This document shows positions 15,714 to 40,312 of a stretch of DNA of 64,000 nt, in pieces (the first letter of the stretch is position 1; each line of letters opens with the position of its first letter). The stretch is from Catellatospora bangladeshensis. Lineage in GTDB: Bacteria > Actinomycetota > Actinomycetes > Mycobacteriales > Micromonosporaceae. A program made the position numbers and the translations under genes. The stretch covers positions 1-64,000 of the forward strand of contig NZ_BONF01000019.1 in NCBI RefSeq assembly GCF_016862575.1. Reading direction: 5' to 3'. The notes under the pieces are model-generated. The model did not search any database. It worked only from the letters and a program-made list of their open reading frames with translations, and was not told the origin of the DNA.

Positions 15714-15751
15714 TGCACTCTCCGGGGGTGTGACGCGTCGCGATGCGCAAA

Positions 15752-15788: not shown

Positions 15789-15834
15789 TCGCCGGCGGCC
15801 GGAGCGGGTGCGGCGCACCCCGGCCGTCAGCGGA

Positions 15835-16884
15835 TCACTTGGCGCAGGTCAGGTACTTTTCGTCGAAGTCCTTCTTGAGGAAGTCCGTCTTGGCCTGGCG
15901 GTCGTTCTCGTACGTGGTGGCGTTGGCGGCGTTGACCACGAAGGAGCCGGAGTCGATGATGACACCGGGCGTGGCCATGGTGCAGCCCTCGGCGAGCTTC
16001 AGCAGCGCGTACGAGCCGACGTAGGCCTGGCCGACCGGGTTCTGCAGCACGGTCGCGGCGACCTCGCCGTTCTTGATGCCCTGGATGATGGTCGGGTCGT
16101 CGTCGATCGCGATCACCTTGATCGGCAGCTTGGCCTGCTTGACGCCGCCCGCCGCGGCCACGGCCGGGTTGTAGGCGGTGGTGACGATCGCGTTGACCTG
16201 GCTGCCCTTGGCGGCGAGCAGGTCGGCGACGGCCTTCTGCGCGGTCTGCAGGTCCTTGTCGATGTCGGTGATGGTGTCGAGCAGCTTCACCTTGCCGCCG
16301 GTCTCGTCGACGGCCTTCTGCACGCCCGCGATGCGGCGCTGGGTGTTGGAGTCGACCTTGTTGCCGGTGAGGTGGACCAGGTTGCCCTGGCCGCCCATGG
16401 CCTCGACCGCCGCCTTGGCCGCCTTGTACGCCGCCTCCTGCACGTCGGTGGAGAGGCAGAAGTCGGCGAGGTTCTTGTCGCCGGCCGGGCAGGAGGCCAG
16501 CGAGCCGACCTTGAAGCCCTGCTTCTTGAGGTTCTCGAAGGTCGAGTTGATGCTCTCCGGCGCGACGCCGAAGATGCCGAAGGCGTTGTAGCCCTGCGCG
16601 GCCAGCGAGGTGAGCACGTCGTTCTGCTTGGTCTGGTCCCAGCCGGCGGTCTCGTTGAAGGTGACGTCGCCGAAGGCGAAGTCGGCCTTGGCCTTGGTGC
16701 CGGCGTCCTTCCACGGCTGGAAGTACGGGTGCGCCCCGCCGGGCACCAGCGCCACCTTGACCTGAGCCGCGGTGAGCGCACCGGCCGCGCCCTCGGGCTC
16801 CTCTTCCTTCTTGGTGCAGGCCGACGCCGTGATCATCAGCGCGAGCACGCCGACGGCCGAGCCCAGTCGAACAAGCGGTCGCAT
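15835..16884 (-). CDS. Sugar ABC transporter substrate-binding lipoprotein
   Basis: 349 aa. Signal peptide with lipobox ITASAC (Cys about residue 23), so the mature protein is a membrane-anchored lipoprotein. The body is a type I periplasmic binding fold (Peripla_BP_4, RbsB-like): VKVALVPGGAHPYFQPWKDAG near 43-63 and AYNPAVAAAGGVKQA near 216. It captures the sugar for the CUT2 permeases. First gene of the transporter operon, preceded by GGGAAGGGA. A clear promoter and a TCCTATAGGA operator lie upstream. Confidence 0.92.
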   Translation of the reverse strand: MRPLVRLGSAVGVLALMITASACTKKEEEPEGAAGALTAAQVKVALVPGGAHPYFQPWKDAGTKAKADFAFGDVTFNETAGWDQTKQNDVLTSLAAQGYNAFGIFGVAPESINSTFENLKKQGFKVGSLASCPAGDKNLADFCLSTDVQEAAYKAAKAAVEAMGGQGNLVHLTGNKVDSNTQRRIAGVQKAVDETGGKVKLLDTITDIDKDLQTAQKAVADLLAAKGSQVNAIVTTAYNPAVAAAGGVKQAKLPIKVIAIDDDPTIIQGIKNGEVAATVLQNPVGQAYVGSYALLKLAEGCTMATPGVIIDSGSFVVNAANATTYENDRQAKTDFLKKDFDEKYLTCAK

Positions 16885-18596: not shown

Positions 18597-21431
18597 CTAC
18601 TGGGTGATGAGGTCGAACTTCTCCCACGGGCCGATGGCCGTGCGGTTGGCGATGAGCGGGTTGGCGCCGGAGTTCTCCGCGGCGACGTACATGCCGTTGA
18701 CCGTGGCGCGCAGGCTGACGCTGCCGTCGGAGTTGTTGACCAGCGTGAACGTCTCCCAGGAGCCGGCGGTGGCCCGGTTGGCGATCAGGTTGCCCGCGCC
18801 CGCGTTCTCGGCGCAGACGAACATGTTGTTGGCCTTCGAGCGCAGCGCGTAGTTGCCGCCGCCCAGGCTGACCAGGTCGTAGCGCTGGGTCGCGCCGATC
18901 GTGGTGGAGTTGGCGATCAGCGCCGTGGTGGCGTTGGCCGCGGTGACGTACTGGTTGTTGACCCGCGCCCGCCACGCGACCACCGGGGTGGTCGGCGCGC
19001 TGCCCGTGGTGAGGGTGAACGAGTCGACGTCGAACAGGTTGCCCGCGCCGCCCTTGAACACCAGGTACAGCGTGGTCGCCCCGGCCGGCAGCGCGGTCAG
19101 GTTGGCGCTGACGCTGGTGAACGTCTCCCAGCTGCCGGTCACCGGCACGGTCACCGTACCGTGCAGGGTGCCGGTCGCCGAGCCGGTGCGCACCTCGATG
19201 GTGCCGCCCGCGCCCGCCGAAGCGGCCCGCACGCTGATCTGGGTCGCGTTGGACACGTTGTACGGCGTGTACGCGATCCAGTCGTTGTTCTCGATGAAGC
19301 CGGCGGTGCGCCCGCCCTCGGCCGCCGCGTGGTCGGCCAGCTGCACGCCCGACTGCGAGCTGAAGTGCTCGCCCTGCCGCTTCTTCGGCTGCAGGGTGCG
19401 GGTGCTGCGCGAGGTGAGCCCGCCGTTGTCGGTGTAGCCGGCGTCGAAGACGCCGAAGATGTTCGCCGCCGCGTCGTGCTCACCGTCGACCGGGATGGTG
19501 ATGGTGCCGGAGCAGCCGGTCTTCGAGGTGATCTGGTGGGCGTGGCTGTCGTGGCCCAGCGAGTACGTCACGGTCACCCGCGAGCAGTCGATGGTGCCGT
19601 CCTCCGGGTCGCTGACGGTGACCGTGAACGGCACCGTGTCGCCGAAGTTGAACAGCTGCCCGTTGCCGGGCGTGGTCAGGTTGATCGTCGGCGCCGCGTT
19701 GCCGACCGTGATCACCAGGCTCGCCGTGCCGGTCAGGCCGCCGGGGTCGGTCACCCGCAGGGTCGGGGTGTAGGTGCCGTTGGTGGTGTACGTCTTCGTC
19801 GGGTTCGCGGCCGTCGACGTGGTGCCGTCGCCGAAGGTCCACAGGTAGCTCAGCGCCCCGCCCTCCGGGTCGGAGCTGCCCGCCGAGGAGAAGTTCACGG
19901 TCAGCGGGTTCGGGCCGGACGTACGGTCGGCGGTGGCCCGCGCGACCGGGCTGCGGTTGCCGCCGCCGATGTACTCGATGCGCCACAGGCCCTGGTTGTT
20001 GGAGCCGGTGCCGTAGTCGAGCACGTACAGCGCGCCGTCCGGGCCGAAGGCCATGTCCATGACCTGGGTGCCGGTCCACGGGAACGCCGAGATCTCGCCG
20101 GGCGTGCCGTCGGCGTTGAGCGCGATCGCCTTGATCCAGCGGCGGCCGTACTCACCGGCGAAGTAGCGCCCGTCCATCGACTGCGGGAACTTGATCGCCG
20201 AGGTGGACGAGGCGTTGTACCGGTAGACCGGGCCGCCCATCGGCGACTCCGAGCCGGTGCCGAACTCGGGCGGGGTGCCCGCGTCACCGGCGTAGCGGAT
20301 CCAGGCCGGCTTGGCGGCGGGCAGCGTGGCCTGACCGGTGTTGCGGAAAGAGTTGTTGGCCGGGCCGCCCGCGCAGTTGTACTTGGCCTGCGACGGGCCG
20401 GACGGGAACGTGTACTCGTTGTAGGTCTCGGTGCTGGTGTTGGTGCCGGTGCAGTACGGCCAGCCGTAGTTGCCCGGCGCGGTGATCCGGTTGAACTCGA
20501 CCTGCCCCTGCGGGCCGCGGGTGGAGCTGGTGGTGCCCGCGTCCGGGCCGTAGTCGCCGAGGTAGACGATGCCGGTGGCCTTGTCCACGCTCATCCGGAA
20601 CGGGTTGCGGAAGCCCATCGCGTAGATCTCGGGCCGGGTGTTCGCCGTCCCGGGCGCGAACAGGTTGCCCGCCGGGATGGTGTAGCTGCCGTCGGCCTGC
20701 GGCTTGATGCGCAGCACCTTGCCGCGCAGGTCGTTGGTGTTGCCCGAGGTGCGCTGCGCGTCGAACTGCGGGTTGCGGTCGGTGCGTTCGTCGATCGGGG
20801 TGTAGCCGCTGGACTCGAACGGGTTCGTGTCGTCGCCGGTGGTCAGGTAGAGGTTGCCCGCCGCATCGAAGTCGATGTCGCCGCCGACGTGGCAGCACTG
20901 GCCGCGGTCGTTGTCGACCTGGAGGGTGATCCGCTCGCTGGCCAGGTTGACGGTGTCGTCGGAGTTGAGCGTGAACCGGGACAGGCGCAGGTGGCCCTTC
21001 CAGGTGTTCCAGGTCGCGGTGGTGCCGGTGACCGGGGCGTCGCCGGCCGGGGTGCTCAGCGGCGGCGAGTAGTAGACCCAGATGAAGCGGTTGGTGGCGA
21101 AGCCCGGGTCGACCGCGATGCCCTGCAGGCCCTCCTCGTCATGGGTGTATACCGACAGCTTGGCCGCCTGCCGGGTGTTGCCGTTGACGTCGGTGACCCG
21201 GATCGTGCCGTCCCGGGCGGTGTGCAGCACCGACCGGTTCGGCAGCACGGCCAGTGACATCGGCTCGCCCAGCTCGGCCGAGCCGGTGGCCAGCGACACC
21301 TGCTGGTAGTCGGCGGCCGGGATCGGTGCCGCCGTCGCGGCGGGCGCTCCCGCCGCGACGGAGACCGCGAAGCTCGCGGCCAGGGTGGCGACGGCTGTGG
21401 ACCACAGCCGCCACCGGGGGACGTGTCTCAT
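18597..21431 (-). CDS. Secreted PQQ-type sugar dehydrogenase-like protein with PKD, CBM6-like and trefoil domains
   Basis: 944 aa. Signal peptide about 1-35. A six-bladed propeller of the soluble glucose/sorbosone dehydrogenase family fills about 40-490: EEGLQGIAVDPGF, CCHVGGDIDFDAAGNLYLTTGD, and SGNTNDLRGKVLRI. Then a PKD domain (about 493-575, SSDPEGGALSYLWTFGDG), an Ig-like domain with DPEDGTIDC, a CBM6-like domain (about 685-805, AEGGRTAGFIENNDWIAY), and a fascin-like trefoil (about 815-944). Likely oxidises a sugar or binds polysaccharide outside the cell; PQQ synthesis genes are not in the window. Co-transcribed with the GH99-like gene downstream. Confidence 0.85.
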   Translation of the reverse strand: MRHVPRWRLWSTAVATLAASFAVSVAAGAPAATAAPIPAADYQQVSLATGSAELGEPMSLAVLPNRSVLHTARDGTIRVTDVNGNTRQAAKLSVYTHDEEGLQGIAVDPGFATNRFIWVYYSPPLSTPAGDAPVTGTTATWNTWKGHLRLSRFTLNSDDTVNLASERITLQVDNDRGQCCHVGGDIDFDAAGNLYLTTGDDTNPFESSGYTPIDERTDRNPQFDAQRTSGNTNDLRGKVLRIKPQADGSYTIPAGNLFAPGTANTRPEIYAMGFRNPFRMSVDKATGIVYLGDYGPDAGTTSSTRGPQGQVEFNRITAPGNYGWPYCTGTNTSTETYNEYTFPSGPSQAKYNCAGGPANNSFRNTGQATLPAAKPAWIRYAGDAGTPPEFGTGSESPMGGPVYRYNASSTSAIKFPQSMDGRYFAGEYGRRWIKAIALNADGTPGEISAFPWTGTQVMDMAFGPDGALYVLDYGTGSNNQGLWRIEYIGGGNRSPVARATADRTSGPNPLTVNFSSAGSSDPEGGALSYLWTFGDGTTSTAANPTKTYTTNGTYTPTLRVTDPGGLTGTASLVITVGNAAPTINLTTPGNGQLFNFGDTVPFTVTVSDPEDGTIDCSRVTVTYSLGHDSHAHQITSKTGCSGTITIPVDGEHDAAANIFGVFDAGYTDNGGLTSRSTRTLQPKKRQGEHFSSQSGVQLADHAAAEGGRTAGFIENNDWIAYTPYNVSNATQISVRAASAGAGGTIEVRTGSATGTLHGTVTVPVTGSWETFTSVSANLTALPAGATTLYLVFKGGAGNLFDVDSFTLTTGSAPTTPVVAWRARVNNQYVTAANATTALIANSTTIGATQRYDLVSLGGGNYALRSKANNMFVCAENAGAGNLIANRATAGSWETFTLVNNSDGSVSLRATVNGMYVAAENSGANPLIANRTAIGPWEKFDLITQ

Positions 21432-21627: not shown

Positions 21628-23739
21628 TCAGCTGCCGTAGATGTCGAGCTCCCAGAGGGAGTAGCCCCACTGGGTGGCGCGCTGGGTGCCGTTGATCCGC
21701 ACGTAGCGGCCGTTGCCGGAGACGGTCAGGTCGTCGACGCCGCCGTCACCGGTGGTGGTGGAGTAGATCGAGGTCCAGGTGCTGTTGTCGTTGGAGACCT
21801 GCACCTGGTACGCCCGGCCGTAGGCCGTCTCCCAGCTGAGCCGGACCCGGCTGATCACCTTCGCCGCGCCGAGGTCGACGGTGATCCACTGCGGGTCGCT
21901 GTAGGCGCTGCCCCAGCGGGTGCCGGTGTTGCCGTCCACGGCGTTGGCGCCGTTGTGCGCGCTGCCGGGCTCCACGCTGGAGACCGTCACCGGGCGGTTG
22001 CGCGACAGCAACTGGGGGCCGCTGGCCGGGGTGCCGTAGACGTTCAGGTCCCACAGCGAGTAGCCGTACTGGGTGAGGCCGCGCTGGGTGCCGTTGACCC
22101 GCACGTACCGGCCGGTGCCGGACACCGTCAGGTCGTCCACGCCGCCGTCGCCGGTGGTCGTGGTGTAGACGTTCGTCCAGGTGGCGTTGTCGGGCGAGGT
22201 CTGCACCTGGTACGCCCGCGCGAAAGCGGCCTCCCAGTTCAGCCGGACCCGGTTGATGGTGTACGAGCCGCCGAGGTCCACGGTGATCCACTGCGGGTCG
22301 GCGTACGCGCTCCCCCAGCGGGTCGCCGCGTTCCCGTCCACGGCGTTCGCGGCGACGTGCGCGCTGCCGGGCTCCACGCTGGACGCCGTGGCGGTCTTGC
22401 CCTGGGCGATGTCCGTGGCGGGCGGCGTGCCGCCGTCGGTCTTGATGCGGATGTTGCGGTAGTTGATGTCCGCGCCGGTGCCGTCGTTCTGCACGCCGAT
22501 GTACCCGTTGGCGATCGCCCGCGAGCTGGTGTAGTCGTTGATCTTCACGCCGTTGAGCCAGATCTCGACCCGCTGGCCGTGCAGCCCGATCTCGTAGGTG
22601 TTCCACTGGCCGGGCGGGTTGAGCGCGGCGGCGCGGGCGGTGGTGTTCGGCGCCTGGAAGCTGTACACGCTGCCCGTGGTGCGGCTCGGGTCGGCGTCGG
22701 TGGCGTCGATCTGGATCTCGTGCCCGGCGTTGACCGGCCCCCACGGGTCGTTGCCCGGGTCGGGGAAGCCGATGAACACGCCGCCGTTGTCGTCGCCCGG
22801 CATCATCCAGTCGACCTTGAGCGAGTAGTTGGCGTAGGTGCGCACCGGGAACCACAGCAGACCCATGCCGCCGAACGAGGTCAGCGTCTCGTTGGCCAGC
22901 GTGAACCCGCCAGGTCCGGCCATGCGCCACTGGTTCAGGCTCGCCTGGGTGCCGTCGAAGATCGCGGTGTAGCCGGTCTCCGGGCGGCAGTCGGCGGGCT
23001 TGGCCCCGGCCGCGATCTGGATGCCGCCGAGCAGCATGGTGCGGAAGTTCGCGTCGGCGTAGGTCTCCTCGGTGTGCCCGAGGCCGGTGTACCAGGATCG
23101 GCCGCCGCCGTAGTTCTGGCACCAGGTGATCGGGTGGTCGCCCATGGTCCCGCCCGAGTACGACGACTCGACCAGGCTGGACAGCACCTTCACGTTGCCG
23201 CGCGGGTTGGCGCGGTAGTTGTACCACTCGTCGGTGCGGGTCCAGGTCGGCGGCAGGTGCGCGGTGGAGATGTTCGCGCGGTCCTCGACCCGGATGGTGG
23301 CCTGCTGCGTGGCCGGGTGCGAGGCGAAGTACGCCCCGACCAGGCCGCCGTACCAGGACCAGTCGTACTCGGTGTCGGCGGCGGCGTGGATGCCGACGTA
23401 GCCGCCGCCGGAGGCGATGTAGCTCTGGAACGCGGCCTCCTGCGTCGTGTTGAGCACGTCGCCGGTGGTGGAGAGCCAGATGACGGCCTGGTACTGGGCC
23501 AGGTTGGCGGTGGTGAACTGGGCGGCGTCCTCGGTCGCGGTGACCGTGAAGCCGTTGGCGGTGCCGAGTGCCTGGATGGCGGCAATGCCGTTGGGGATGG
23601 ACGAGTGGCGGAAGCCGGCCGTCTTGGAGAAGACCAGCACCTTCGTCAGCGGTGCGGCGGACGCGGGCAGCGGCGCCGCCAGCGCCGTGCCGGCCGCCAG
23701 CGCGAGGCCGGCGACCACGGACAGAAACCTTCTGCGCAT
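21628..23739 (-). CDS. Secreted ThuA / DUF1080 protein with two F5/8C domains
   Basis: 703 aa, ATG with AAGGAG upstream. Signal peptide about 1-28. ThuA domain about 30-255 (KVLVFSKTAGFRHSSIPNGI, GGGYVGIHAAADTEYDW, GDHPITWCQNYGGGRSWYTGLGHTEE). DUF1080 / 3-keto-disaccharide hydrolase-like beta-sandwich about 262-430 (FDGTQASLNQWRM, VFIGFPDPGNDPWGP). Two F5/8 type C discoidin domains close the protein (about 440-570 and 575-703), each with NAVDGNxxTRWGSAYxDPQW. ThuA proteins are linked to trehalose or keto-sugar catabolism; with DUF1080 an activity on 3-keto-glycosides is plausible. The ThuA part is almost identical in DNA to the gene at 39146. Confidence 0.85.
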   Translation of the reverse strand: MRRRFLSVVAGLALAAGTALAAPLPASAAPLTKVLVFSKTAGFRHSSIPNGIAAIQALGTANGFTVTATEDAAQFTTANLAQYQAVIWLSTTGDVLNTTQEAAFQSYIASGGGYVGIHAAADTEYDWSWYGGLVGAYFASHPATQQATIRVEDRANISTAHLPPTWTRTDEWYNYRANPRGNVKVLSSLVESSYSGGTMGDHPITWCQNYGGGRSWYTGLGHTEETYADANFRTMLLGGIQIAAGAKPADCRPETGYTAIFDGTQASLNQWRMAGPGGFTLANETLTSFGGMGLLWFPVRTYANYSLKVDWMMPGDDNGGVFIGFPDPGNDPWGPVNAGHEIQIDATDADPSRTTGSVYSFQAPNTTARAAALNPPGQWNTYEIGLHGQRVEIWLNGVKINDYTSSRAIANGYIGVQNDGTGADINYRNIRIKTDGGTPPATDIAQGKTATASSVEPGSAHVAANAVDGNAATRWGSAYADPQWITVDLGGSYTINRVRLNWEAAFARAYQVQTSPDNATWTNVYTTTTGDGGVDDLTVSGTGRYVRVNGTQRGLTQYGYSLWDLNVYGTPASGPQLLSRNRPVTVSSVEPGSAHNGANAVDGNTGTRWGSAYSDPQWITVDLGAAKVISRVRLSWETAYGRAYQVQVSNDNSTWTSIYSTTTGDGGVDDLTVSGNGRYVRINGTQRATQWGYSLWELDIYGS

Positions 23740-30718: not shown

Positions 30719-31801
30719 TCAGGCCGATCTGCTCGCCACGAATTCCGCCAGCCCCGCCAGCGCCTGCCGCGCGTCCGGCGCGAGATCCAGGAAGTCCAGC
30801 GCACGCAGCGACTCCGCCCGCGCCGCCGCGATCCGCTCCTCCACCGCCGCCAGCGCCCCACTGCCGGCCACCGCCTCCCGCACCAGCCGTGCCCCCGGCT
30901 CGTCCAGCTGCGGATCCCCCACGTGCGCCGACAGCACCGCACGCGATCGCACGTCGGCGCGCGCGTACGCCTCCGCCAGCAGCTGCGTCGGCTTGCCCTG
31001 GCGCAGGTCGTCCAGGGTGGACTTGCCCGTGCGCGCCGGGTCGCCGAACACCCCCAGCACGTCGTCGCGCAGCTGGAACGCCTCGCCCAGCGGCTCGCCG
31101 TACGCGGCCAGCCCGTCCAGCACCGCGTCCGGCGCCCCGGCCAGCGTCGCCCCGATCTGCAGCGGCCGCACCACCGAGTAGCGCCCCGTCTTCAGCTGCA
31201 CCACCCGCGCCGCGCGGGCCGGCGCGCCCGGCCCGAAGTCGGCCATCGCCTGCGCGACGACCTCCAGATACTCCCCCGCCACCGCCTCGGTGCGCATCAC
31301 CGCGAACAGGCGCCGCGCCTGCGCCAGCCGCACCGGCTCCACCGGGCACCCGGCCAGCAGCTCCTCGGCCCACATCGCGCACAGGTCGCCGCAGAGCAGC
31401 GCGGTGTTGCGCCCGAACGCCCGCGCGTCCCCGCGCCAGCCCGCGCGCGCGTGCGCCGCCGCGAACTCCTCGTGCAGCGACGGCGCGCCCCGGCGGCGGG
31501 TGCCGTCGTCGATCAGGTCGTCGTGGATCAGCGCGAAGCAGTGGAACAGCTCCAGCGCCGCGCCCGCGGTCACCGCGCGCTGGTCGTCGGCCTGCTCCGC
31601 CGGGGCCGCCGTGCCGCGCCAGGCCCAGTAGCAGAACGCCGGCCGCAGCCGCTTCCCCCCGCTCAGGATGAACCGCCGCAGCGAATCCAGCATCGGCCGC
31701 AGGTCCTCGTCGGGCCACAGCAGCCGCTGCCCGTCCACGAACCCGGCCAGCACCGCGTCGATCCGCGCGGCCAGCGGCGTCGGCGCGGGCGCGAGCGTCA
31801 C
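30719..31801 (-). CDS. Polyprenyl (isoprenoid) diphosphate synthase
   Basis: 360 aa from GTG with GGGGAG upstream. First aspartate-rich motif LIHDDLIDDGTRRRG (about residues 92-106, DDxxD) and second motif LRDDVLGVFGD (about 245-255, DDxxGD-like), plus GGKRLRP near 48. Small residues precede the first motif, so the chain length (C15-C30) cannot be read safely. It is the last gene of the ebo-type operon, after a 235-base spacer with repeats. It probably supplies the prenyl donor for the UbiA-like EboC encoded in the same operon. Confidence 0.9.
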   Translation of the reverse strand: MTLAPAPTPLAARIDAVLAGFVDGQRLLWPDEDLRPMLDSLRRFILSGGKRLRPAFCYWAWRGTAAPAEQADDQRAVTAGAALELFHCFALIHDDLIDDGTRRRGAPSLHEEFAAAHARAGWRGDARAFGRNTALLCGDLCAMWAEELLAGCPVEPVRLAQARRLFAVMRTEAVAGEYLEVVAQAMADFGPGAPARAARVVQLKTGRYSVVRPLQIGATLAGAPDAVLDGLAAYGEPLGEAFQLRDDVLGVFGDPARTGKSTLDDLRQGKPTQLLAEAYARADVRSRAVLSAHVGDPQLDEPGARLVREAVAGSGALAAVEERIAAARAESLRALDFLDLAPDARQALAGLAEFVASRSA

Positions 31802-31830
31802 GGCGCGCTCCCCACACCCGCGGGTCCGGA

Positions 31831-31893
31831 GTGCAGTTTCGGGGAAACTGCACGAATCCTCACCCCAGACCCTGTACTTTCCCCGAAACTGAC
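31831..31893. repeat. Palindromic element, family B, copy 1
   Basis: GTGCAGTTTCGGGGAAACTG hairpin, then GAATCC, a 10-base variable centre, CCCTG and the complementary TTTCCCCGAAACTG arm. The whole unit (about 62 bp) folds on itself. It lies in the spacer between EboF and the polyprenyl synthase genes. Confidence 0.8.
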
Positions 31894-31962
31894 GCGCCCA
31901 CCGGCGTGGGCCCCCACCCGCGTAGCGAGCGCCCACCCCACGGGCGTGCCCGCGCGGCCGCC

Positions 31963-32025
31963 CTGCAGTTTCGGGGAAACTGCACGAATCCCAGCGACCC
32001 ACCCTGCAGTTTCCCGGAAACTGCC
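31963..32025. repeat. Palindromic element, family B, copy 2
   Basis: Same organisation as the copy at 31831: TGCAGTTTCGGGGAAACTGC, then GAATCC, a variable centre, CCCTG and GCAGTTTCCCGGAAACTGC. Same length and orientation. It lies 11 bases after the EboF stop codon. Confidence 0.8.
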
Positions 32026-32036
32026 ACACCCCGGCG

Positions 32037-33416
32037 TCATGGCGTGCTCCCGGCGAGGCGGAGGAGGAGGGCCTTGACGTCGGTGGCGGCGATGCGGTCG
32101 ACGGCGGGGCCGGGGTCGGAGCACAGGAGCAGGGGTGCGTCGTCGGGACCGGGTGGGAGCAGGCCGTGGGAGCCCCGGATCGCCGACGCGCCCGCGTCCA
32201 GGCCGATCACGTTCATGCGGTAGCGCATGCCGAGCTTCTTGCGGACCAGCGCCTTCGCGGCACGGGCCTTGGCGGCGCCGGGGCTCGCCGGGTCGAAGAA
32301 CAGCTCGGCGGGGTCGTAGCCGGGCTTGCGGTGGATCTCGACGTGGGTGGCGAAGTCGGGGGCGCGCTTGTCGTCGAGCCAGTAGTAGTACGTGAACCAG
32401 GCGTCGGGCTCGGCGAGCAGCACCAGCTCGCCGCTGCGGGCGTGGTCCAGCCCCTGCTCGGCCTTGCCGGACTCGTCGAGCACCTGCCCGACGCCGGGCA
32501 GCTCCGCGCAGATCTTCGCGACGGCGGCCAGGTCGGCGGGGTCGCGTACGTACACATGCGCGATTTGATGATCGGCGACGGCGAACGCGCGCGAGGTGAA
32601 CGGGTCCAGGTACTCCATTCCGTCCTGGGTGTGCACGTGCAGCAGCCCGGCGGCGCGCAGCGCCCGGTTGACGTGCACGGGGCGGGACACGTCGGTGATG
32701 CCGTACTCCGAGAGCGCGACCAGCGTCGCCCCGCGCGCGGCGGCGGCGTCGAGCAGCGGGCCGAGGACCTCGTCCAGCGCGGCGGCGGCCTGGGCCGAGC
32801 GCGGGTCGGCCGGGCCGAAGCGCTGCAGGTCGTAGTCGAGATGCGGCACGTACACCAGGGTCAGGTCCGGGTCGCGGGTCTGCATGACGTGCACCGCCGC
32901 CTCGGCGATCCACTTCGACGAAGGCAGGCCCGCGCCCGGACCCCAGTACGTGAACAGCGGGAACTCGGGCAGCTCGTCGTGCAGCTCGGCCGGGATCGTG
33001 TAGCAGTCCGGCTCCTTGCGGCCGTCGGCGCGGTAGATCGGGCGCGGCGTGATCGTCCAGTCGACGTCCGCGCCCATGGCGTACCACCAGCAGATGTTCG
33101 CCACGGTGTAGCCGGGGCGGTCCCTGCGGATCGCGTCCCAGACCCGCTCGCCCTCGATGAGCGCGTGGCTCTGCCGCCACAGCAGCACCTCGCCGAGGTC
33201 GCGGAAGTACCACCCGTTGCCGACGATGCCGTGCTGCGCCGGGGTGCTCCCGGTCAGGAACGTCGCCTGCACCGAGCAGGTCACGGCCGGCACGACCGGG
33301 TCGAGGCGCGCAGTGAAGCCGTCCGCGCACGCGGCGCGCAGCCGGGGCATGCGCGCGAGCAGCCGTGGCGTCAGCCCGACGACGTCCAGCACCACCAGCG
33401 GATTGATCCGGTCCAT
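32037..33416 (-). CDS. eboF: EboF-like alkaline phosphatase-superfamily protein
   Basis: 459 aa, nucleotide pyrophosphatase/phosphodiesterase fold. The nucleophile is the Thr of VPAVTCSVQATFLTG (about residues 43-57). Metal ligands appear in VYVPHLDYDLQRFG (about 158-171), ALSEYGITDV (about 207-216) and ADHQIAHVYV (about 248-257). No signal peptide, so it acts in the cytoplasm unless carried out. Members of this family are part of ebo clusters, where they are thought to remove phosphate or nucleotide groups from an intermediate. Its start overlaps the eboE stop as TGATG. Confidence 0.85.
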   Translation of the reverse strand: MDRINPLVVLDVVGLTPRLLARMPRLRAACADGFTARLDPVVPAVTCSVQATFLTGSTPAQHGIVGNGWYFRDLGEVLLWRQSHALIEGERVWDAIRRDRPGYTVANICWWYAMGADVDWTITPRPIYRADGRKEPDCYTIPAELHDELPEFPLFTYWGPGAGLPSSKWIAEAAVHVMQTRDPDLTLVYVPHLDYDLQRFGPADPRSAQAAAALDEVLGPLLDAAAARGATLVALSEYGITDVSRPVHVNRALRAAGLLHVHTQDGMEYLDPFTSRAFAVADHQIAHVYVRDPADLAAVAKICAELPGVGQVLDESGKAEQGLDHARSGELVLLAEPDAWFTYYYWLDDKRAPDFATHVEIHRKPGYDPAELFFDPASPGAAKARAAKALVRKKLGMRYRMNVIGLDAGASAIRGSHGLLPPGPDDAPLLLCSDPGPAVDRIAATDVKALLLRLAGSTP

Positions 33417-34534
33417 CACGACACTCCCAACGCGGCGAACTGTTCCCGGGCGAAGGCAAGCTCGGCGGCGATGCCCGCGGCCAGCCCCGCGTCGTCGGCG
33501 GGGCGGGCCGCCGACGGCAGCACGTCCCAGGTGTAGGTCTCGACCTCGAAGTGGTCGCAGTCGGAGTTGGTGAGCAGCGCGGCCAGGCCCTCCTGCAGCA
33601 CCTGGGTGCTGGTGCGCAGCGGTTCGAGGGCGGCGGCGTGCAGCGGCGCGTGGAAGTGGATGCGCCACGGGCCGGGCGCCTCCGAGGCCAGCGCGAGCGG
33701 CAGGTCGTCGAAGCGCTCCCCCGCCGAGCTGCGGGTCTGGTGCAGGAAACGCGGCTCGGCGTATGCCGCGAGCACCTCCCGGGCCGCCTGCGGGTCCTCG
33801 ACCTCCAGCGCCTGGGACACCTGCACCTTGACCACGGGCACCCCGGCCGACTTGAGCTTGGCGACCGCGTCGGCCGGGTCCTCCCAGCCGCAGGCCAGGT
33901 GCGCGAGGTCGACGCATACCCCCAGATGCTCGTCGGCGACGGCGGACAGCGCCGCGACGGCCTGGTCGGTGGACTCGACCACGCAGCCCGGCTCGGGCTC
34001 CAGCGCGACCCGGACCGTCCGGTCCAGGCGGGCGAGTCCGGCCGCCAGCTCGCCGAACTGGGCGCGGGCGGCGCCGAAGCGCCGCTTGTCCCAGGGCTCG
34101 CGCCAGGCCAGCGGCAGCGTCGAGATCGAGCCGCGGGCGGCGTCGTCGGGCAGCAGCTCGGCCAGCACCAGGGCCAGGTCGAGGGTGTACCGCAGCCGCC
34201 GCGGGTCGGTCCAGTCCGGCAGGTAGACGTCGTGCTTGACCACCGGGGCCTGGAACGCCTGGTAGGGGAAGCCGTTGAGGGTGACCGTCTCCAGGCCGCG
34301 CGCCGACAGCTCGGTCCGCAGCCGCCGGCGCAGCTCGGGCTGCTCGGCCAGGGCGCGGGCGACCGGGGCGGCCAGCCACAGGCCCAGCCCCAGCACGTCG
34401 GCGCCCAGGCGCTCGCGCACCGGCACCGCGAACCGGTCCAGCTGCGACAGCACCCCGTCGAAGTCCTCGGCCGCATGCACGTTCGTGCAGTACGCCAGGT
34501 GGACGGTGGTGCCGTCGGCGTCGCGCAGCCGCAT
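33416..34534 (-). CDS. eboE: EboE-like metabolite traffic protein (TIM-barrel)
   Basis: 372 aa, xylose-isomerase-like TIM barrel. Characteristic stretches are HLAYCTNVHAAEDFDGVLSQ near the start, NGFPYQAFQAPVVKHDVYLP (about 92-111), VALEPEPGCVVESTDQA (about 170-186), GVCVDLAHLACGWEDP (about 200-215) and THTW-like ETYTWDVLP near the end. These are shared with proteins annotated as metabolite traffic protein EboE. The substrate is unknown. Coupled to both neighbours by TGATG overlaps. Confidence 0.87.
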   Translation of the reverse strand: MRLRDADGTTVHLAYCTNVHAAEDFDGVLSQLDRFAVPVRERLGADVLGLGLWLAAPVARALAEQPELRRRLRTELSARGLETVTLNGFPYQAFQAPVVKHDVYLPDWTDPRRLRYTLDLALVLAELLPDDAARGSISTLPLAWREPWDKRRFGAARAQFGELAAGLARLDRTVRVALEPEPGCVVESTDQAVAALSAVADEHLGVCVDLAHLACGWEDPADAVAKLKSAGVPVVKVQVSQALEVEDPQAAREVLAAYAEPRFLHQTRSSAGERFDDLPLALASEAPGPWRIHFHAPLHAAALEPLRTSTQVLQEGLAALLTNSDCDHFEVETYTWDVLPSAARPADDAGLAAGIAAELAFAREQFAALGVS

Positions 34535-35385
34535 CACGAACCCCCGCGCAGGATCGAGTTCCCGGCGAACGTCGCCTCGGCGGCGGCGTCCTCGTCGAGG
34601 TCGAGCCGGCCGGACTGCCCGTAGAACTCGACGGGGTTGCGCCAGAGCACGCGGTCCACGTCGTCGGCGCTGAACCCGGCCGCGAGCATCGCCTCGCCGG
34701 TGCGCAGGGTGAGCAGCGGATCGGACTTGCCCCAGTCGGCGGCGGAGTTGACGAGCATGCGCTCCAGGCCGTACTCGCGCAGGATGGCGACCATGCGCTC
34801 GGGCGACATCTTGGTGTCGGGGTAGATGGAGAAGCCCATCCAGCAGCCCGTCCCGGCGACCTCGCCGACGGTCGGCTCGTTGAGGTGGTCCAGCACCACC
34901 ATGCCCGGGTCGATGCCGGACTCCTTGACCACATCGAGGCTGCGCCGGGTGCCGGTGACCTTGTCCCGGTGCGGGGTGTGCACCAGCGCGGGCAGCCCGT
35001 GCTCGCGGGCGAGCTGCAACTGGACCGCGAAGACCTCGTCCTCCTCGGCGGTCATCGAGTCGTAGCCGGTCTCGCCGACCGCGACGACCCGGTCCTTGGC
35101 CAGGTAGCGCGGCAGCAGCGGCAGCACCTCCCGGCAGCGCGGGTCGTTGGCCTCCTTCGGGTTCAGCGCGATGGTGCAGTGGTGCCGGATGCCGTACTGG
35201 CTCGCCCGGAACGGCTCCCACCCGATCAGCGCGTCGAAGTAGTCGGTGAACGAACCCGGGTTGGTGCGGGGCTGGCCGAGCCAGAAAGCCGGCTCGACCA
35301 GCGCTCGCACACCCGCCGCCGCCATCCGCTCATAGTCGTCGGTGGTGCGCGAGGTCATGTGGATGTGCGGGTCGAAGATGCGCAT
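34534..35385 (-). CDS. eboB: EboB-like TatD-family hydrolase
   Basis: 283 aa amidohydrolase-fold protein. Metal-site residues: DPHIHM (residues 5-10), VGETGYDSM with Glu (about 113), LVHTPH with His (about 142-147), and HLNEPT (about 178). It is closest to the EboB/TatD-like hydrolases found in ebo clusters rather than to the DNase TatD. Probably hydrolyses an amide, ester or phosphoester in the unknown pathway. Translation coupled to the EboA fusion upstream and EboE downstream. Confidence 0.87.
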   Translation of the reverse strand: MRIFDPHIHMTSRTTDDYERMAAAGVRALVEPAFWLGQPRTNPGSFTDYFDALIGWEPFRASQYGIRHHCTIALNPKEANDPRCREVLPLLPRYLAKDRVVAVGETGYDSMTAEEDEVFAVQLQLAREHGLPALVHTPHRDKVTGTRRSLDVVKESGIDPGMVVLDHLNEPTVGEVAGTGCWMGFSIYPDTKMSPERMVAILREYGLERMLVNSAADWGKSDPLLTLRTGEAMLAAGFSADDVDRVLWRNPVEFYGQSGRLDLDEDAAAEATFAGNSILRGGS

Positions 35386-36689
35386 CAATGCAGCCTCTCC
35401 AGGAGTTCGACGGCGTCGGCGGGCATGGTGCGGCCGGCCGCTTCCCGCTCGTGGCGCAGGGCCGCGAGCATGCGGCCCAGCTCGGTGTCGGCGCGTTCGG
35501 CCAGCCCGTCCACCCCGGACAGCGGCAGGCCCATGAACACGCTCTTGAGCACGCCCTGGCGCCACTCGGCGGCGGGCAGGTCCCGCGCGCCGGGGCCGAG
35601 CGCGGCGGCGACCAGGCGGGTGTCGTTGCTGCGCAGCGCGTCGCGGACCAGGTCCGGAGCGGGGCAGGCCAGCAGCACGGCACGCTTCTCGTCGTTGTCG
35701 CCGTAGCGGTACAGCTCGGCGGCGGCGTCCGCGCCGGGCGCGGCGGCGTGCAGCAGGCGCACCCGGGCGTCCTCGGCGGCGGCGCGGCCCACGCCCCGGC
35801 GTGCGGCGGGCAGCAGCGTGGCGATCGCGGCCGGGTCGCGGGCGATCTTGTCGAGGGCGTCGCCGAGCCACTGCGCGGCGCGCAGGAAGGTCAGCGAGCG
35901 GGCCGCGACCTCGGGTGCGGCGTGCGAGTGCCGGGGCAGCTCGACGGCGACCAGGCCGGTGTATCCGGTGTCGGCCAGCGCGCGCAGCACCGGCGGGAAG
36001 TCGATCTCGCCCGTGCCGAACTCCAGGTGCTCGTGCACGCCGCGGCGCATGTCGTCGATCTGCACGTTGACCAGGTGCGGCCCGGCGATCCGGACGCACT
36101 CCTCGACGCCGACGGGCTCGTTGGCGCAGCAGTGGCCGATGTCGAGGGTGAGCTTGAGCTGCTCGCCGACGAGGTCGCGCAGCCGCTGCCAGTCGGCGAG
36201 GGTCTCGACGAGCATGCCGGGCTCGGGCTCGAAGCCGGGCGCGACACCGCGCTCGGCCGCGTAGGCGACGACCTCGGCGCAGCCTTCGGCCAGCAGCTGC
36301 CAGGCCACGTCGGCGGATACGTGCGCGGGACGGACCCCGGCCCAGAACGACACGGCTTCGGCGTTCAGCTCGGCGGCGATGTCGACGGCCCGTTTGAGGA
36401 AGTCGACGCGGCGGGGCGCGTCCTCGTGCAGGAAGGTGGGCGCGTGCTTGCGCCGGGGGTCGAGCAGGTAACGCGCGCCGGTCTCCACGACCACCGCCAG
36501 CTCCCGCTCCGCGAGCAGCCGTGCGGTCCGTGCCACCTGGTCTTTCACATCGATGGCGTACGGATCCACGTGCGCGTGGTCCAGCGTCAGCGCGACGCCG
36601 GTGTAGCCGAGTTCGGCGATCACGTCGAGGGCGTCGGCGAGCCGGTGGTTGGCGAATCCGTTGGTGCCGTAGCCGAAGCGCAGGCTCAT
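35385..36689 (-). CDS. Sugar phosphate isomerase/epimerase fused to an EboA domain
   Basis: 434 aa with two domains. Residues 1-270 form an AP-endonuclease/xylose-isomerase-like TIM barrel: FGYGTNGFANHRLADAL, GFEPEPGMLVE, KLTLDIGHCCANEP and LVNVQIDDMRRGVHEHLEFG, with metal ligands Glu, Asp, His and Glu. Residues about 320-434 match the EboA domain: YRYGDNDEKRAVLLA, LRSNDTRLVAAALGPGA and WRQGVLKSVFMGLPL. In cyanobacterial ebo operons EboA is a separate protein. ATGA overlap with eboC upstream, TGATG overlap with eboB downstream. Confidence 0.87.
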   Translation of the reverse strand: MSLRFGYGTNGFANHRLADALDVIAELGYTGVALTLDHAHVDPYAIDVKDQVARTARLLAERELAVVVETGARYLLDPRRKHAPTFLHEDAPRRVDFLKRAVDIAAELNAEAVSFWAGVRPAHVSADVAWQLLAEGCAEVVAYAAERGVAPGFEPEPGMLVETLADWQRLRDLVGEQLKLTLDIGHCCANEPVGVEECVRIAGPHLVNVQIDDMRRGVHEHLEFGTGEIDFPPVLRALADTGYTGLVAVELPRHSHAAPEVAARSLTFLRAAQWLGDALDKIARDPAAIATLLPAARRGVGRAAAEDARVRLLHAAAPGADAAAELYRYGDNDEKRAVLLACPAPDLVRDALRSNDTRLVAAALGPGARDLPAAEWRQGVLKSVFMGLPLSGVDGLAERADTELGRMLAALRHEREAAGRTMPADAVELLERLH

Positions 36690-37528
36690 GTCGGGGACAC
36701 CTTTCTCGCGAGCTTCGCCCCGGCGGGGGCGGCGGTGGCGATCGCGGCCCCGAGCAGCGGCCGGCCGTCCCTGGCGATGAGCGCGCCCTGCAGCGCGGGC
36801 AGCGAGGTGATCCCGGCCCCGACCGCGGCGCGCACCCGCGGCGCGTCGGGCTGGCGCAGCACCTCGCGCTGGGCCCGGCCGAAGCGCACCGCATACCACG
36901 CCGCCAGCAGCACCGGCAGCGGCCCGCCGGACCGGCCCGCGGCCTGCGTGGCCACCGCGGCGGTCGCGCCCAGCGTCAGCGCGGGCAGCGTGCGGTCGGC
37001 GCCGGACACCTCCCGCCGCGACAGTGCGGTGACGGCGTACGTGTGCGCGGCGACGGCCAGCGCGGGCCGGGCGGCGCGGCGCAGGTCGCCGCCGCTGCCG
37101 CCCATGAGCACGTCCAGCCCCCGGCACAGCGCCATGCCCGCCGGACCCGCCGGGCTGTTCTTCCACTTCACGTCGTAGGTCCAGATGGCGCCCGCGAGCA
37201 GCGCGGCGGTGGCCAGGGTGCGCCGCCCGCCGCTGGCCCCGGCCAGCACCAGGCCCGCCGCGGTCAGGCCGCCCGCCACGGCCAGCGCCGTGTTCGGGCT
37301 GATCCGGCCGGACGGGATGGGGCGCTCGGGGCGCTCCTTCGCGTCCAGCTCGCGGTCGGCCCAGTCGTTGGCGGCCATGCCGCCCCAGTAGAGGCAGACC
37401 GAGGCGGCGGCGACCCCGGCGGTGCGGGCGCTGAGGCTGCCCGCCGCGACCGCGCCCGCCACGGCGTCACCCGGCACCGACAGCGCGGCGGGAGCGCGCA
37501 CGAGCTGGGCGAGGTCGCGGAGTCTCAT
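36686..37528 (-). CDS. eboC: EboC-like UbiA prenyltransferase
   Basis: 280 aa with about eight membrane helices. The first UbiA aspartate-rich motif is NDWADRELDAKERPERPIPS (about residues 54-73, NDxxDxxxD). The second conserved region (where the family has DxxxD) appears as TYDVKWKNSPAG near 118-129, so only part of the motif is kept. It would prenylate a soluble acceptor at the membrane, using diphosphate from the polyprenyl synthase of the same operon. Second gene of the operon, ATGA-coupled to the gene before it. Confidence 0.87.
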   Translation of the reverse strand: MRLRDLAQLVRAPAALSVPGDAVAGAVAAGSLSARTAGVAAASVCLYWGGMAANDWADRELDAKERPERPIPSGRISPNTALAVAGGLTAAGLVLAGASGGRRTLATAALLAGAIWTYDVKWKNSPAGPAGMALCRGLDVLMGGSGGDLRRAARPALAVAAHTYAVTALSRREVSGADRTLPALTLGATAAVATQAAGRSGGPLPVLLAAWYAVRFGRAQREVLRQPDAPRVRAAVGAGITSLPALQGALIARDGRPLLGAAIATAAPAGAKLARKVSPT

Positions 37529-38748
37529 CGCGGCTGCGCCCCGTCCTGGTCCGCGACCCGGTCCGCGTGCTCGTCCGCCGCACCGCCGGGCCCGCCGGAG
37601 CCCGAGTCCGCTGCCGCGAGCGGCCACCCGTGCACCCAGCGGCAGAGCAGCTCCCACTGCTCGGCCAGGCCGTGCGGGACGTCGCCGAGCGGGTCTTTGA
37701 AGAAGTAGGCGAGCTGCGGCAGCGCCCCGTGCTCCCCCTGTGCGTGGGCGGCGGCGGTGAGCCGGGCCAGATCCAGCACCAGCGGGGCGGCCAGCGCGGA
37801 GTCGCAGCCGTGCCAGGTGAACTCCAGCCGCATCCGGCTGCCCAGGAAGCCGCTGAAGGTGATCAGGTCCCAGGCGGTCTTCAGGTCGCCGATGTCGGGC
37901 ACGTAGTCGATGCGGGTGTGGCCCTCCGGCTCGTAGCCCAGCGTCTCCTTGAGCACCCGCTGCTTGCTGGCGACCTTGGCCGCGTTGGCGTCCGGCCGGG
38001 CCAGGGTCGCGCCGTCGCCGCCGCCGAGCAGGTTGGTGCCCGACCAGGAGCGCACCCGCAGGTTGCGCATCGCGAACATGGGCGCGAGCACCGACTTGAG
38101 CAGCGTCTCGCCGGTCTTGCCGTCGTGCCCGGCGTAGGGCACCCGGTGGTGGGCGGCGAGCTGGTCCAGCGCGGGCAGCCGTGCTCCGGTCGACGGGGTG
38201 AAGTCGACGTACGCGCAGCCCGTGGTGAACGCCGCGTACGCATACCGCGAGCTGGGCGGCAGCACCTGCTCGGTGTGCAGGGCGGCGGCCAGCGCGGCGG
38301 CGTCGGCGTGCGCGGGGTGCGGGGCGGCGAGCGGCTCGGTCGAGGACACGTTGACCACGACGACCCGCTCCAGACGGTGCCGGGCCCGGAAGTCGGCCAG
38401 ATCGGCGGTGATCCGGGCGACGGTGTCGTGCTGCGTGCGGCCCTCGGGGGCCGCTCGGACCTCGGGTTCCATCGCGGACAGCTCGTCGGCGACGGCGGCG
38501 ACCACCGCGGCGGGCAGCACGCCCGCGGCCACGAGCGCCTGTGCCTTCTTGACCAGGCCGACGCAGGACACGTCGTGTCCGCCGAAGACCAGTTCGGACA
38601 GCGCCGGCAGCGCCGGGTGGCGCAGCGCGGGCAGCTCGGTGACGCAGCCGACGGGCTCGGCGAGGGAGGCCCGGATCGCCAGCGCACCCACCATGCTGGT
38701 CACCGCGACCGATCCGCGGGCGCCGACGAGCCATATACCAGTACGCAC
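37525..38748 (-). CDS. Inositol-1-phosphate synthase-like protein heading the ebo-type operon
   Basis: 407 aa, GTG start with AGGAGGT upstream. An N-terminal NAD-binding fold starts at WLVGARGSVAVTSMVGALA (residues 6-24). The central part has NVSSTEP (about 125), FTPSTGARLPAL (about 175), AGHDGKTGETLLKSVLAPMF (about 198-217), SWSGTNLLGGGDGATL and FSGFLGSRMRLEFTWHGCDS, typical of the inositol-3-phosphate synthase superfamily. This enzyme cyclises glucose-6-phosphate; the position of an EboD-type sugar cyclase is thus taken by a different cyclase. First gene of a seven-gene transcript running down to 30719. Confidence 0.87.
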   Translation of the reverse strand: MRTGIWLVGARGSVAVTSMVGALAIRASLAEPVGCVTELPALRHPALPALSELVFGGHDVSCVGLVKKAQALVAAGVLPAAVVAAVADELSAMEPEVRAAPEGRTQHDTVARITADLADFRARHRLERVVVVNVSSTEPLAAPHPAHADAAALAAALHTEQVLPPSSRYAYAAFTTGCAYVDFTPSTGARLPALDQLAAHHRVPYAGHDGKTGETLLKSVLAPMFAMRNLRVRSWSGTNLLGGGDGATLARPDANAAKVASKQRVLKETLGYEPEGHTRIDYVPDIGDLKTAWDLITFSGFLGSRMRLEFTWHGCDSALAAPLVLDLARLTAAAHAQGEHGALPQLAYFFKDPLGDVPHGLAEQWELLCRWVHGWPLAAADSGSGGPGGAADEHADRVADQDGAQPR

Positions 38749-39145: not shown

Positions 39146-40312
39146 ATGCGAAAACGCGTACTGTCCCTGGTCGCCGGCCTCATCACGGTGCTGGCCACGA
39201 CCCTGCTGGCCCCGGCCCCGGCCTCCGCGGCGCCGCTGACGAAGGTGCTGGTCTTCTCCAAGACGGCCGGCTTCCGCCACTCGTCCATCCCCAACGGCAT
39301 CGCCGCCATCCAGGCACTCGGCACCGCCAACGGCTTCACCGTCACCGCCACCGAGGACGCCGCCCAGTTCACCACCGCCAACCTGGCCCAGTACCAGGCC
39401 GTCATCTGGCTCTCCACCACCGGCGACGTGCTGGACGCGACTCAGCAGACCGCGTTCCAGAGCTACATCGCCTCCGGCGGCGGCTACGTCGGCATCCACG
39501 CCGCAGCCGACACCGAGTACGACTGGTCCTGGTACGGCGGGCTGGTCGGGGCGTACTTCCACTCCCACCCCGCGATCCAGAACGCCCAGCTGCGGGTGGA
39601 GGCGCCGGTCAACGCCTCGACCGCGCACCTGCCGTCCACCTGGACCCGCAGCGACGAGTGGTACAACTACCGCACCAACCCGCGTGCCAACGTCCGCGTG
39701 CTGATGAACCTCAACGAGGCCAGCTACACCGGCGGCAACATGGGCGACCACCCGATCACCTGGTGCCAGGCGTACGGCGGCGGCCGGGCCTGGTACACCG
39801 GCCTCGGCCACACCGAGGCCAGCTACACCGACACCAACTTCACCCGGATGCTGCTCGGCGGCATCCAGATCGCGGCCGGGGCGGTCGCCGCCGACTGCAG
39901 CAAGCCCACCCCCGGCCCGGCCGGGACCAGCCTGCGCGCCCGCGCCAACGGCAGGTTCGTCACCGCCCCCAACGGCGGGGCGTCGGCGCTGATCGCCAGC
40001 GCGACCACCATCGGCACCGCCGAGCGCTTCGAGATCATCGACCGCGGCAGCGGCAACGTCGCCATCCGCGCGCTGGTGAACTCGCGGTACGTCTGCGCCG
40101 ACAACGCCGGGGCCAACCCGCTCATCGCCAACCGCACCGCGATCGGCGGCTGGGAGACGTTCGCGCTGATCCGCAACAGCAACGGCAGCATCAGCCTGCG
40201 CGCCCAGGCCAACGGCCGGTATGTCGTCGCGGAGAACGGCGGCGCCGCCCCGCTGATCGCCAACCGCACCTCCATCGGCCCGTGGGAGCAGTTCGACCTG
40301 GTCACCTCGTAA
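39146..40312 (+). CDS. Secreted ThuA-domain protein with fascin-like trefoil
   Basis: 388 aa, ATG with AAGGAG. Signal peptide about 1-28. ThuA domain about 30-255 is nearly identical to that of the 21628 gene (KVLVFSKTAGFRHSSIPNGI; GGGYVGIHAAADTEYDWSWY). Instead of DUF1080 and discoidin domains it ends with a fascin-like trefoil (about 262-388) containing LRARANGRFVTAPNGG, IRALVNSRYVCADNAG and LRAQANGRYVVAENGG. The ThuA fold is a glutamine-amidotransferase-like domain; in this secreted context its role is unknown, probably tied to glycan breakdown. It is the only plus-strand member of the secreted set. Confidence 0.85.
   Translation: MRKRVLSLVAGLITVLATTLLAPAPASAAPLTKVLVFSKTAGFRHSSIPNGIAAIQALGTANGFTVTATEDAAQFTTANLAQYQAVIWLSTTGDVLDATQQTAFQSYIASGGGYVGIHAAADTEYDWSWYGGLVGAYFHSHPAIQNAQLRVEAPVNASTAHLPSTWTRSDEWYNYRTNPRANVRVLMNLNEASYTGGNMGDHPITWCQAYGGGRAWYTGLGHTEASYTDTNFTRMLLGGIQIAAGAVAADCSKPTPGPAGTSLRARANGRFVTAPNGGASALIASATTIGTAERFEIIDRGSGNVAIRALVNSRYVCADNAGANPLIANRTAIGGWETFALIRNSNGSISLRAQANGRYVVAENGGAAPLIANRTSIGPWEQFDLVTS

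Follow-up and report, generated by a model that had tools for sequence, protein, structure and literature searches.

A MIPS-type variant of the ebo operon in Catellatospora bangladeshensis and other Actinomycetota

The ebo operon (eboABCDEF) was named in 2016 and is known from many bacterial phyla as well as from algal plastids (PMC5133447). In Nostoc punctiforme it is needed for scytonemin and moves a metabolite to the periplasm (PMC6282210). These two papers, as well as PMC9235831 and PMC3610822, are cited herein from excerpts. An operon of this type without eboD, headed by a gene of the myo-inositol-phosphate synthase family (MIPS), was found in a 64,000-nucleotide stretch of Catellatospora bangladeshensis (contig NZ_BONF01000019.1, positions 1 to 64,000), herein referred to as the window. 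Is the different cyclase an accident of one genome or the mark of an established form, and what could such a form make? The MIPS-type ebo operon is a real, conserved variant of a known, unexplained gene set and, as far as our searches show, is unremarked in the open-access literature. Support is good for an exchange of the first enzymes, whereas the product and its role are inferred.

The first enzymes of actinobacterial ebo operons

Seven genes were confirmed on the minus strand of the window at 30719-38748, in the order MIPS, EboC (UbiA), a fusion of a xylose-isomerase-fold domain (XI) with EboA, EboB, EboE, EboF, and a polyprenyl diphosphate synthase (PPS) (Table 1). The first six share 1-4 bases at every junction. 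The overlaps are 37525-37528 (MIPS/EboC), 36686-36689 (EboC/XI-EboA), and 33416-33419 (EboE/EboF; one base if EboF begins at its second codon, ATG), with single shared bases at 35385 (XI-EboA/EboB) and 34534 (EboB/EboE). The original prediction, made from the sequence alone, of a seven-gene ebo operon with overlapping genes thus holds in coordinates, families, and overlaps.

No match to PF01761, the EboD family, was found among the seven window proteins, and the operon is a variant rather than the standard six-gene ebo operon. Like the eboABCDEF operons of Bacteroidota, Cyanobacteria, eustigmatophyte plastids, and Leptospira (PMC5133447), it holds EboA, EboB, an EboC-like protein, EboE, and EboF together. 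In contrast to them, it lacks EboD and has a MIPS and XI-like pair, an XI-EboA fusion in this genus, and an added PPS.

The cyclase at the head of the operon is assigned to the MIPS family by its profile matches (PF07994, 165 bits; PF01658, 108 bits) and by active-site residues present in 12 of 12 aligned rows. Its nearest solved relative is the archaeal-type MIPS of Archaeoglobus fulgidus (1u1i, 238.9 bits), which is alike in sequence and active-site residues but differs in genomic role. Residues N239, K258, K262, K290, and K351 pair with chain positions 255, 274, 278, 306, and 367 of the 1u1i alignment, which we take to be catalytic, and are invariant in the 12 homologues; one entry in the alignment to solved structures is a mutant, with Lys changed to Ala at position 367. 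The protein scores 23.8 bits on TIGR03450, far below the cut-off of 638 bits, and is not the mycothiol-type actinobacterial INO1. An additional MIPS outside the ebo set was found in 24 of 25 genomes. With a MIPS-type protein at the head and no PF01761 match, the predicted replacement of EboD by a different sugar-phosphate cyclase is borne out.

EboE is present in 28 of 61 relatives and in 19 of 396 genomes sampled across the phylum. After the phylum search, 18 loci were retrieved. MIPS is present in 14 of them and EboD in one (L095); two have neither (L092 and L107), and one is a short stretch (L108). A scan of genome contigs provided a further set, the best 80 of 584 confirmed candidates, all Actinomycetota; these loci partly repeat genomes seen before, some under two identifiers (e.g., L054 and L129), and the counts drawn from them are not independent. 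EboA was found in all 80, XI in 77, EboC in 74, MIPS in 64, and PPS in 33. MIPS is present in 61 of the 67 loci with more than 2 kb readable upstream, a count by which its origin as a one-off insertion was rejected, and 10 of the 16 MIPS-less loci begin at most 200 bases from a contig end. Locus L064 starts at a contig edge. Because MIPS immediately precedes EboC in the same orientation in all 63 loci having both, and the gene order of the window was found again across Actinomycetota loci, the arrangement is not due to chance. The original prediction of a variant at this locus was right as to MIPS in the place of EboD but too narrow, since in Actinobacteria MIPS is the common form and varies in step with XI. 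The predicted isomerase-EboA fusion is present in the window; of the 77 loci holding both XI and EboA, only 11 have them in a single reading frame. An absence of EboC from L047, L051, L059, and L060 was rejected: the gene had been missed by tblastn and is seen in reading frames and profiles. In L048, L049, and L050, an EboE-family gene but no other ebo gene was found in the 18.5 kb read.

EboB, EboE, and EboF occur together in 139 of the loci collected; MIPS is present in 110 of these, EboD in 8, neither in 21, and both in none. An EboD profile gave 637 bits in the EboD-type genome G438 and best scores of 121-189 bits in 24 others, as expected of AroB-like relatives; in the whole host genome the best score was 138 bits. 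By these searches, a hidden EboD in MIPS-less loci and an EboD elsewhere in MIPS-type genomes were both rejected. A tree of EboB, EboE, and EboF was calculated by a quick method, with no bootstrap, for 57 of the 139 usable loci, picked for spread; two of its rows are long-branched and L185 is only 37% filled. A branch with SH-aLRT support of 100 splits the 8 EboD-type rows from all 42 MIPS-type rows. Seven loci without MIPS fall inside the MIPS side, in three places, and L095, a locus from a different actinobacterial family, falls together with Deinococcus among the EboD-type rows.

Among plasmid records, 54 had an EboB match and 13 loci were read, 8 of them EboD-type (L209-L215 and L220) and 5 MIPS-type; Bacteroidota and Cyanobacteria were covered through such plasmid records. 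The EboD-type operons have the same core proteins as the window operon (for L213, the place read showed EboB and EboD only) but carry a 3-dehydroquinate-synthase-like EboD, with no profile match to MIPS, ebo-type XI, or PPS. On plasmids, the XI profile matches all 5 MIPS-type loci and none of the 8 EboD-type loci. In Ketogulonicigenium, a different isomerase-fold gene lies beside EboB.

In genome G336, a MIPS with a lower score than the others (309.6 bits) is adjacent to an XI, and the two lie apart from the remaining ebo genes. The MIPS-less Streptomyces branch comprises five loci, and an inositol-monophosphatase-family gene lies upstream in L092 (identified by Pfam) as well as in L186 and L188 (matching a profile of the L092 copy); L198, in the same branch, has only 2.2 kb upstream. 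Because XI tracks MIPS, the two form a pair in G336, and inositol-monophosphatase genes occur in this branch, inositol or its phosphate would be the ring and XI the adapting enzyme. The simplest history, judged from sequence comparison, is a single exchange of EboD for the MIPS and XI pair, with EboA, EboB, EboC, EboE, and EboF kept, followed by a few losses. Such a natural exchange of the first enzyme constrains the ebo product, since the later enzymes have to work on a compound that an XI-type step can yield from inositol phosphate.

Table 1. Operon genes and neighboring features in the window
Feature	Position	Strand	Basis
MIPS-type cyclase (inositol-1-phosphate-synthase family), operon head	37525..38748	-	PF07994, PF01658
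EboC, UbiA-superfamily prenyltransferase (SCO3242 family)	36686..37528	-	NF045897, PF01040
Fusion of N-terminal xylose-isomerase-fold (XI) domain and C-terminal EboA domain	35385..36689	-	PF01261, NF035938
EboB, TatD-like metallohydrolase	34534..35385	-	PF01026
EboE, xylose-isomerase-like TIM barrel	33416..34534	-	NF035939, PF01261
EboF, phosphodiesterase/NPP fold, metal site remodelled	32037..33419	-	PF01663
EboF-PPS spacer with palindromic repeats TGCAGTTTCGGGGAAACTGCA	31802..32036		repeat matching
PPS, polyprenyl diphosphate synthase, short chain by similarity	30719..31801	-	PF00348
ThuA-domain protein, divergent neighbor of MIPS	39146..40312	+	PF06283, 267.5 bits on open frame 38924-40312
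Second ThuA domain near the operon	23017..23643	-	listed ThuA match (contig C19)
GSDH (glucose/sorbosone dehydrogenase-like) + PKD + CBM6 protein	18597..21431	-	PF07995, PF18911, PF03422
Sugar-type ABC transporter: ATPase, permease, RbsB-like binding protein	12140..16884	-	PF00005, PF02653, PF13407

Core proteins and the polyprenyl synthase

The XI domain comprises residues 22-271 of the fusion protein (PF01261), and its best solved relatives are MJ1311 and IolE. Residues 306-429 form the EboA domain (NF035938, 119.9 bits; cut-off 50). The predicted EboA model is all-helical, with a pLDDT of 97.9 (window 35388-35882); compared with solved structures, it gave 93 matches at E ≤ 10 and none at E ≤ 0.001. 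EboE scores 408 bits on NF035939, for which the cut-off is 250. No Ebo-specific NCBIfam model matched EboB at E ≤ 0.01, and its assignment as an EboB follows from 41% identity to the EboB of the EboD-type locus L095, together with the same gene company. Residues H7, H9, E105, H136, H167, and D217 of EboB, presumably the TatD metal ligands, are invariant in 15 of 15 rows.

The EboC of the window exceeds the cut-off of the SCO3242-family model NF045897 (358.9 versus 260 bits) and scores 126.6 bits on the EboC model NF035940, for which the cut-off is 250. Its NDxxDxxxD motif is invariant in 120 of 120 sequences, and its best solved relative, a weak one, is digeranylgeranylglyceryl phosphate synthase (6m31, E 2.8e-5). 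The family is named after SCO3242 of Streptomyces coelicolor, which is listed with SCO3243, annotated as a myo-inositol phosphate synthase, among the CDA-cluster genes (PMC3610822); it is in this cluster membership that the pair differs from the window genes, as compared by description and not by the S. coelicolor locus. EboC homologues of three genera farnesylate 8-HQA in vitro (PMC9235831), so the acceptor of EboC could be an aromatic quinoline, with MIPS supplying something else such as an inositol head group. We regard this as most improbable. A panel of 14 aromatics had provided the acceptors, with no cyclitol mentioned in the excerpts of that paper, and no quinoline genes were recognised at the window locus, although no search was aimed at them.

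EboF belongs to the PF01663 family (215 bits), as expected for an ebo operon, but does not retain the six NPP metal-ligand positions of a canonical PF01663 phosphodiesterase or phosphatase. In all 137 sequences, four of the six positions are altered, with Val8 and Glu232 in place of Asp and with Gln193 and Tyr233 in place of His. In terms of motifs, the Asp and His of SDHG are replaced by Glu and Tyr, the His of DxxGH by Gln, and the first metal Asp by Val. Asp189, His412, and the nucleophile Thr41 are kept in an alignment to the Xanthomonas NPP 2gsn, in which the His412 segment is low-scoring. We assume that both the altered and the retained positions are metal-binding. Residues T41, Q193, E232, and Y233 are common to all 137 sequences, 8 of which are EboD-type, and the remodelled active site is thus shared by the EboF of both operon types. 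Because four of the six metal-ligand positions are changed, EboF is unlikely, on sequence grounds, to act as an ordinary two-metal phosphatase. This speaks against the original prediction, which had read EboF as a phosphatase-fold protein, and the customary phosphatase label, also used in published annotation, may be wrong.

PPS scores nearly equally against the farnesyl diphosphate (FPP) synthase 8f8f (210.8 bits) and the geranylgeranyl diphosphate (GGPP) synthase 3lk5 (208.8 bits). In the set of 80 loci, PPS was found in 31 of the 70 with more than 2.5 kb readable downstream; of the 33 loci that bear it, 30 have it after EboF in the same orientation. In L091 and L169 it precedes MIPS, and in L106, L133, and L137 it is encoded on the opposite strand. 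PPS is thus a frequent but optional operon partner, and because it is optional, the prenyl donor is probably ordinary FPP or GGPP. The co-occurrence check proposed with the original prediction was favorable, since PPS persists in relatives, as does MIPS. A role of PPS as a chance neighbor was rejected: it overlaps EboF by 4 bases in L040, L045, L051, L052, L054, L055, and L060 (starts extrapolated from alignments) and is present in both halves of the divided ebo set of genome G029.

In the window, EboF (stop at 32037) and PPS (start at approximately 31801) are separated by about 235 bases. The predicted spacer is thus present, but since PPS and EboF overlap in the seven relatives, it is a local insertion and not a feature of the operon at large. 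The palindrome TGCAGTTTCGGGGAAACTGCA in the spacer has 78 matches in the genome at no more than one mismatch (37 forward and 41 reverse), and a backward control has none. Several copies form close pairs 41 bases apart, and the palindrome looks like a REP-type element.

Genome G029 contains one EboE and one EboB (the copy counts cover these two genes), and its ebo set is divided over two unlinked loci, L222 (ABC-Gfo-ThuA/GSDH-MIPS-EboA-EboB-EboF-PPS) and L043 (ROK-EboC-XI-EboE-PPS-ThuA). This division looks like a duplication followed by complementary loss. The halves complement each other and both kept PPS and ThuA, which is good evidence that the ebo genes are needed together.

Gene neighborhood and the possible product

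The reading we prefer, at about even odds, is that the pathway of MIPS and XI makes an inositol-derived, prenylated membrane molecule that serves extracytoplasmic enzymes. The dedicated MIPS would convert glucose-6-phosphate to an inositol phosphate, the XI-like enzyme would turn the ring into an intermediate that takes the place of the EboD product, and EboE and EboB would then modify it. EboC would link the ring to a C15-C20 prenyl chain in the membrane, supplied in many Micromonosporaceae by the operon's own PPS. The helical EboA may hold the enzymes together, and EboF may use a non-canonical mechanism to bind or process a partner that bears phosphate. The prenylated molecule would serve a nearby-encoded extracytoplasmic enzyme, either by helping a substrate to cross, as for the scytonemin monomer of Nostoc, or as a lipid cofactor. 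The BE-40644 pathway likewise combines a cyclitol ring with farnesylation by a UbiA-superfamily protein but differs in its 2-epi-5-epi-valiolone-type ring, made from sedoheptulose-7-phosphate, and in a UbiA protein that is not EboC (PMC5133447).

The original prediction called a prenylated cyclitol product undescribed. An isoprenoid-cyclitol product had been proposed in 2016 in PMC5133447, which also noted actinobacterial XI-EboA hybrids ("data not shown"); the word "inositol" is absent from its main text. The legend of Figure 3 in PMC9235831 includes Saccharomonospora, but the main text of that paper contains no mention of inositol. MIPS is present in the Saccharomonospora locus L201. In the open-access literature (subscription papers were not covered), no other paper was found on an ebo set with an inositol synthase.

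Genes for sugar transporters and for ROK, Gfo/Idh, ThuA, and GSDH proteins recur around the operon, which goes beyond the account in the original prediction. In the window, the ThuA protein next to MIPS and the GSDH protein are apparently secreted, their signal-like starts being judged by eye. A survey of 11 ebo regions of about 57 kb each, with rough gene calls (codon-position G+C) and single-linkage clusters, found MIPS in 10 and, in 9, proteins of a GSDH/PKD/CBM6/ThuA cluster to which the window GSDH protein belongs. Seven regions have a ROK regulator and four have Gfo/Idh; ABC ATPases are present in all 11, but this family is very common. ThuA lies within 15 kb of ebo in at least 16 of 28 genomes, compared with 0.72 expected from ThuA number and genome size, and 0 of 100,000 simulations reached 16; this enrichment is based on 150 listed ThuA places and is uncorrected for genome relatedness. 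Among the matches listed, ThuA was found within 15 kb of a MIPS outside ebo in 0 of 24 genomes. At L043:6219-7553, beside the ebo genes, a single protein combines a ThuA domain with a 3-keto-disaccharide hydrolase domain.

This company of an RbsB-type ABC transporter, ROK, Gfo/Idh/MocA, ThuA, and the ThuA-hydrolase protein would suit sugar catabolism, in which an extracellular 3-keto-glycoside or inositol derivative is degraded and MIPS, XI, and EboE act on the imported sugar. Such a role is decidedly unlikely. It leaves EboC and PPS unexplained, MIPS normally runs in the synthetic direction, and the Streptomyces plasmid operons adjoin antibiotic-type genes with none of these sugar genes annotated nearby.

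On these plasmids, a gene of the ScyD/ScyE family lies immediately upstream of MIPS in three of the five MIPS-type loci (L216, L218, and L221), each of which also has an annotated multicopper oxidase; both families were tested on L216 and taken from NCBI annotation for L218 and L221. One of the remaining two loci is beside nonribosomal peptide synthetase genes and the other beside type II polyketide synthase genes. ScyD/ScyE as a general ebo partner was rejected, as no match over the cut-off was found beside ebo in 28 chromosomes. The variety of these plasmid neighbors is what would be seen if Ebo were a transport module only, a membrane complex exporting various metabolites, with the cyclitol chemistry making a small anchor or regulator. 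We consider this rather doubtful: the conserved active-site residues of MIPS, EboB, EboC, and EboE favor an enzyme pathway, and none of the seven proteins has a transporter-family match in Pfam.

A redox cofactor is another alternative. Here XI-fold enzymes would dehydrate and aromatise the inositol ring, EboC would prenylate it, and the resulting new prenylquinone would serve secreted beta-propeller dehydrogenases (GSDH, ScyD/E, and PVC-type). GSDH/ThuA genes beside ebo, the ScyD/E family beside MIPS, the match of XI to IolE, and a PVC-type dehydrogenase with cytochrome c near the Ketogulonicigenium EboD-type operon are consistent with it. We find it unlikely, given that the localisation phenotype in Nostoc needs no aromatisation, that none of the 28 chromosomes has a ScyD/E match over the cut-off next to ebo, and that no such dehydrogenase is listed near the Azospirillum, Roseivivax, Deinococcus, and Salipiger plasmid loci, for which the gene table is incomplete.

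Several observations weigh against the inositol-derived, prenylated molecule itself. The Nostoc phenotype fits transport better than a cofactor, and the only tested EboC relatives found farnesylated quinolines, e.g., 8-HQA, in vitro (PMC9235831). PPS was not seen in 39 of the 70 loci readable downstream, and EboF is without most of the ligands expected of a phosphatase. No inositol monophosphatase was found in 7.4 kb upstream of L205, in the MIPS-less Streptomyces branch. Among the matches listed, no ThuA lies within 15 kb of ebo in 12 of the 28 genomes, some of them on short contigs, and the nearest ScyD/E match in the 28 chromosomes is weak (20.9 bits) and 20 kb from ebo (G220).

A broader form of the preferred reading is doubtful: ebo operons of all phyla would make one class of prenylated-cyclitol cofactor or carrier, entered through EboD from sedoheptulose-7-phosphate or through MIPS and XI from glucose-6-phosphate, on which secreted beta-propeller enzymes (ScyD/E, GSDH/ThuA, and PVC-type dehydrogenases) depend.

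Other ebo loci and the host genome

The EboD-type operon L209 is located on plasmid p1 of Ketogulonicigenium vulgare, a bacterium used in vitamin C production. Its neighborhood includes a pair of Gfo/Idh genes, genes for an isomerase and a tripartite carboxylate transporter, and the PVC-type dehydrogenase and cytochrome c genes. The EboD loci L212, L213, and L215 (Aureibacter, Gloeothece, and Mycetohabitans) share a ferritin-like gene (PF12902), which adjoins a hypothetical gene for a protein of 587-675 aa without a Pfam match.

The host genome has 8.83 Mb in 115 contigs. Its window EboB shares 94% identity with the EboB proteins of Catellatospora paridis and C. coxensis. Each of the 11 genus genomes searched yielded two or more full-length EboE matches, one match in G008 being in two pieces. 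The host itself has a second MIPS-type ebo operon (L031, contig C6), in which XI and EboA are also fused and the proteins, compared one by one, are 55-80% identical to those of the window; PPS was not seen there in the 18.7 kb read. A further MIPS is encoded on contig C38. Upstream of the second operon lies a MiaB-like gene, named from sequence reading only, and one copy of TGCAGTTTCGGGGAAACTGCA is located at C6:33413, inside the gap between its MIPS and EboC genes.

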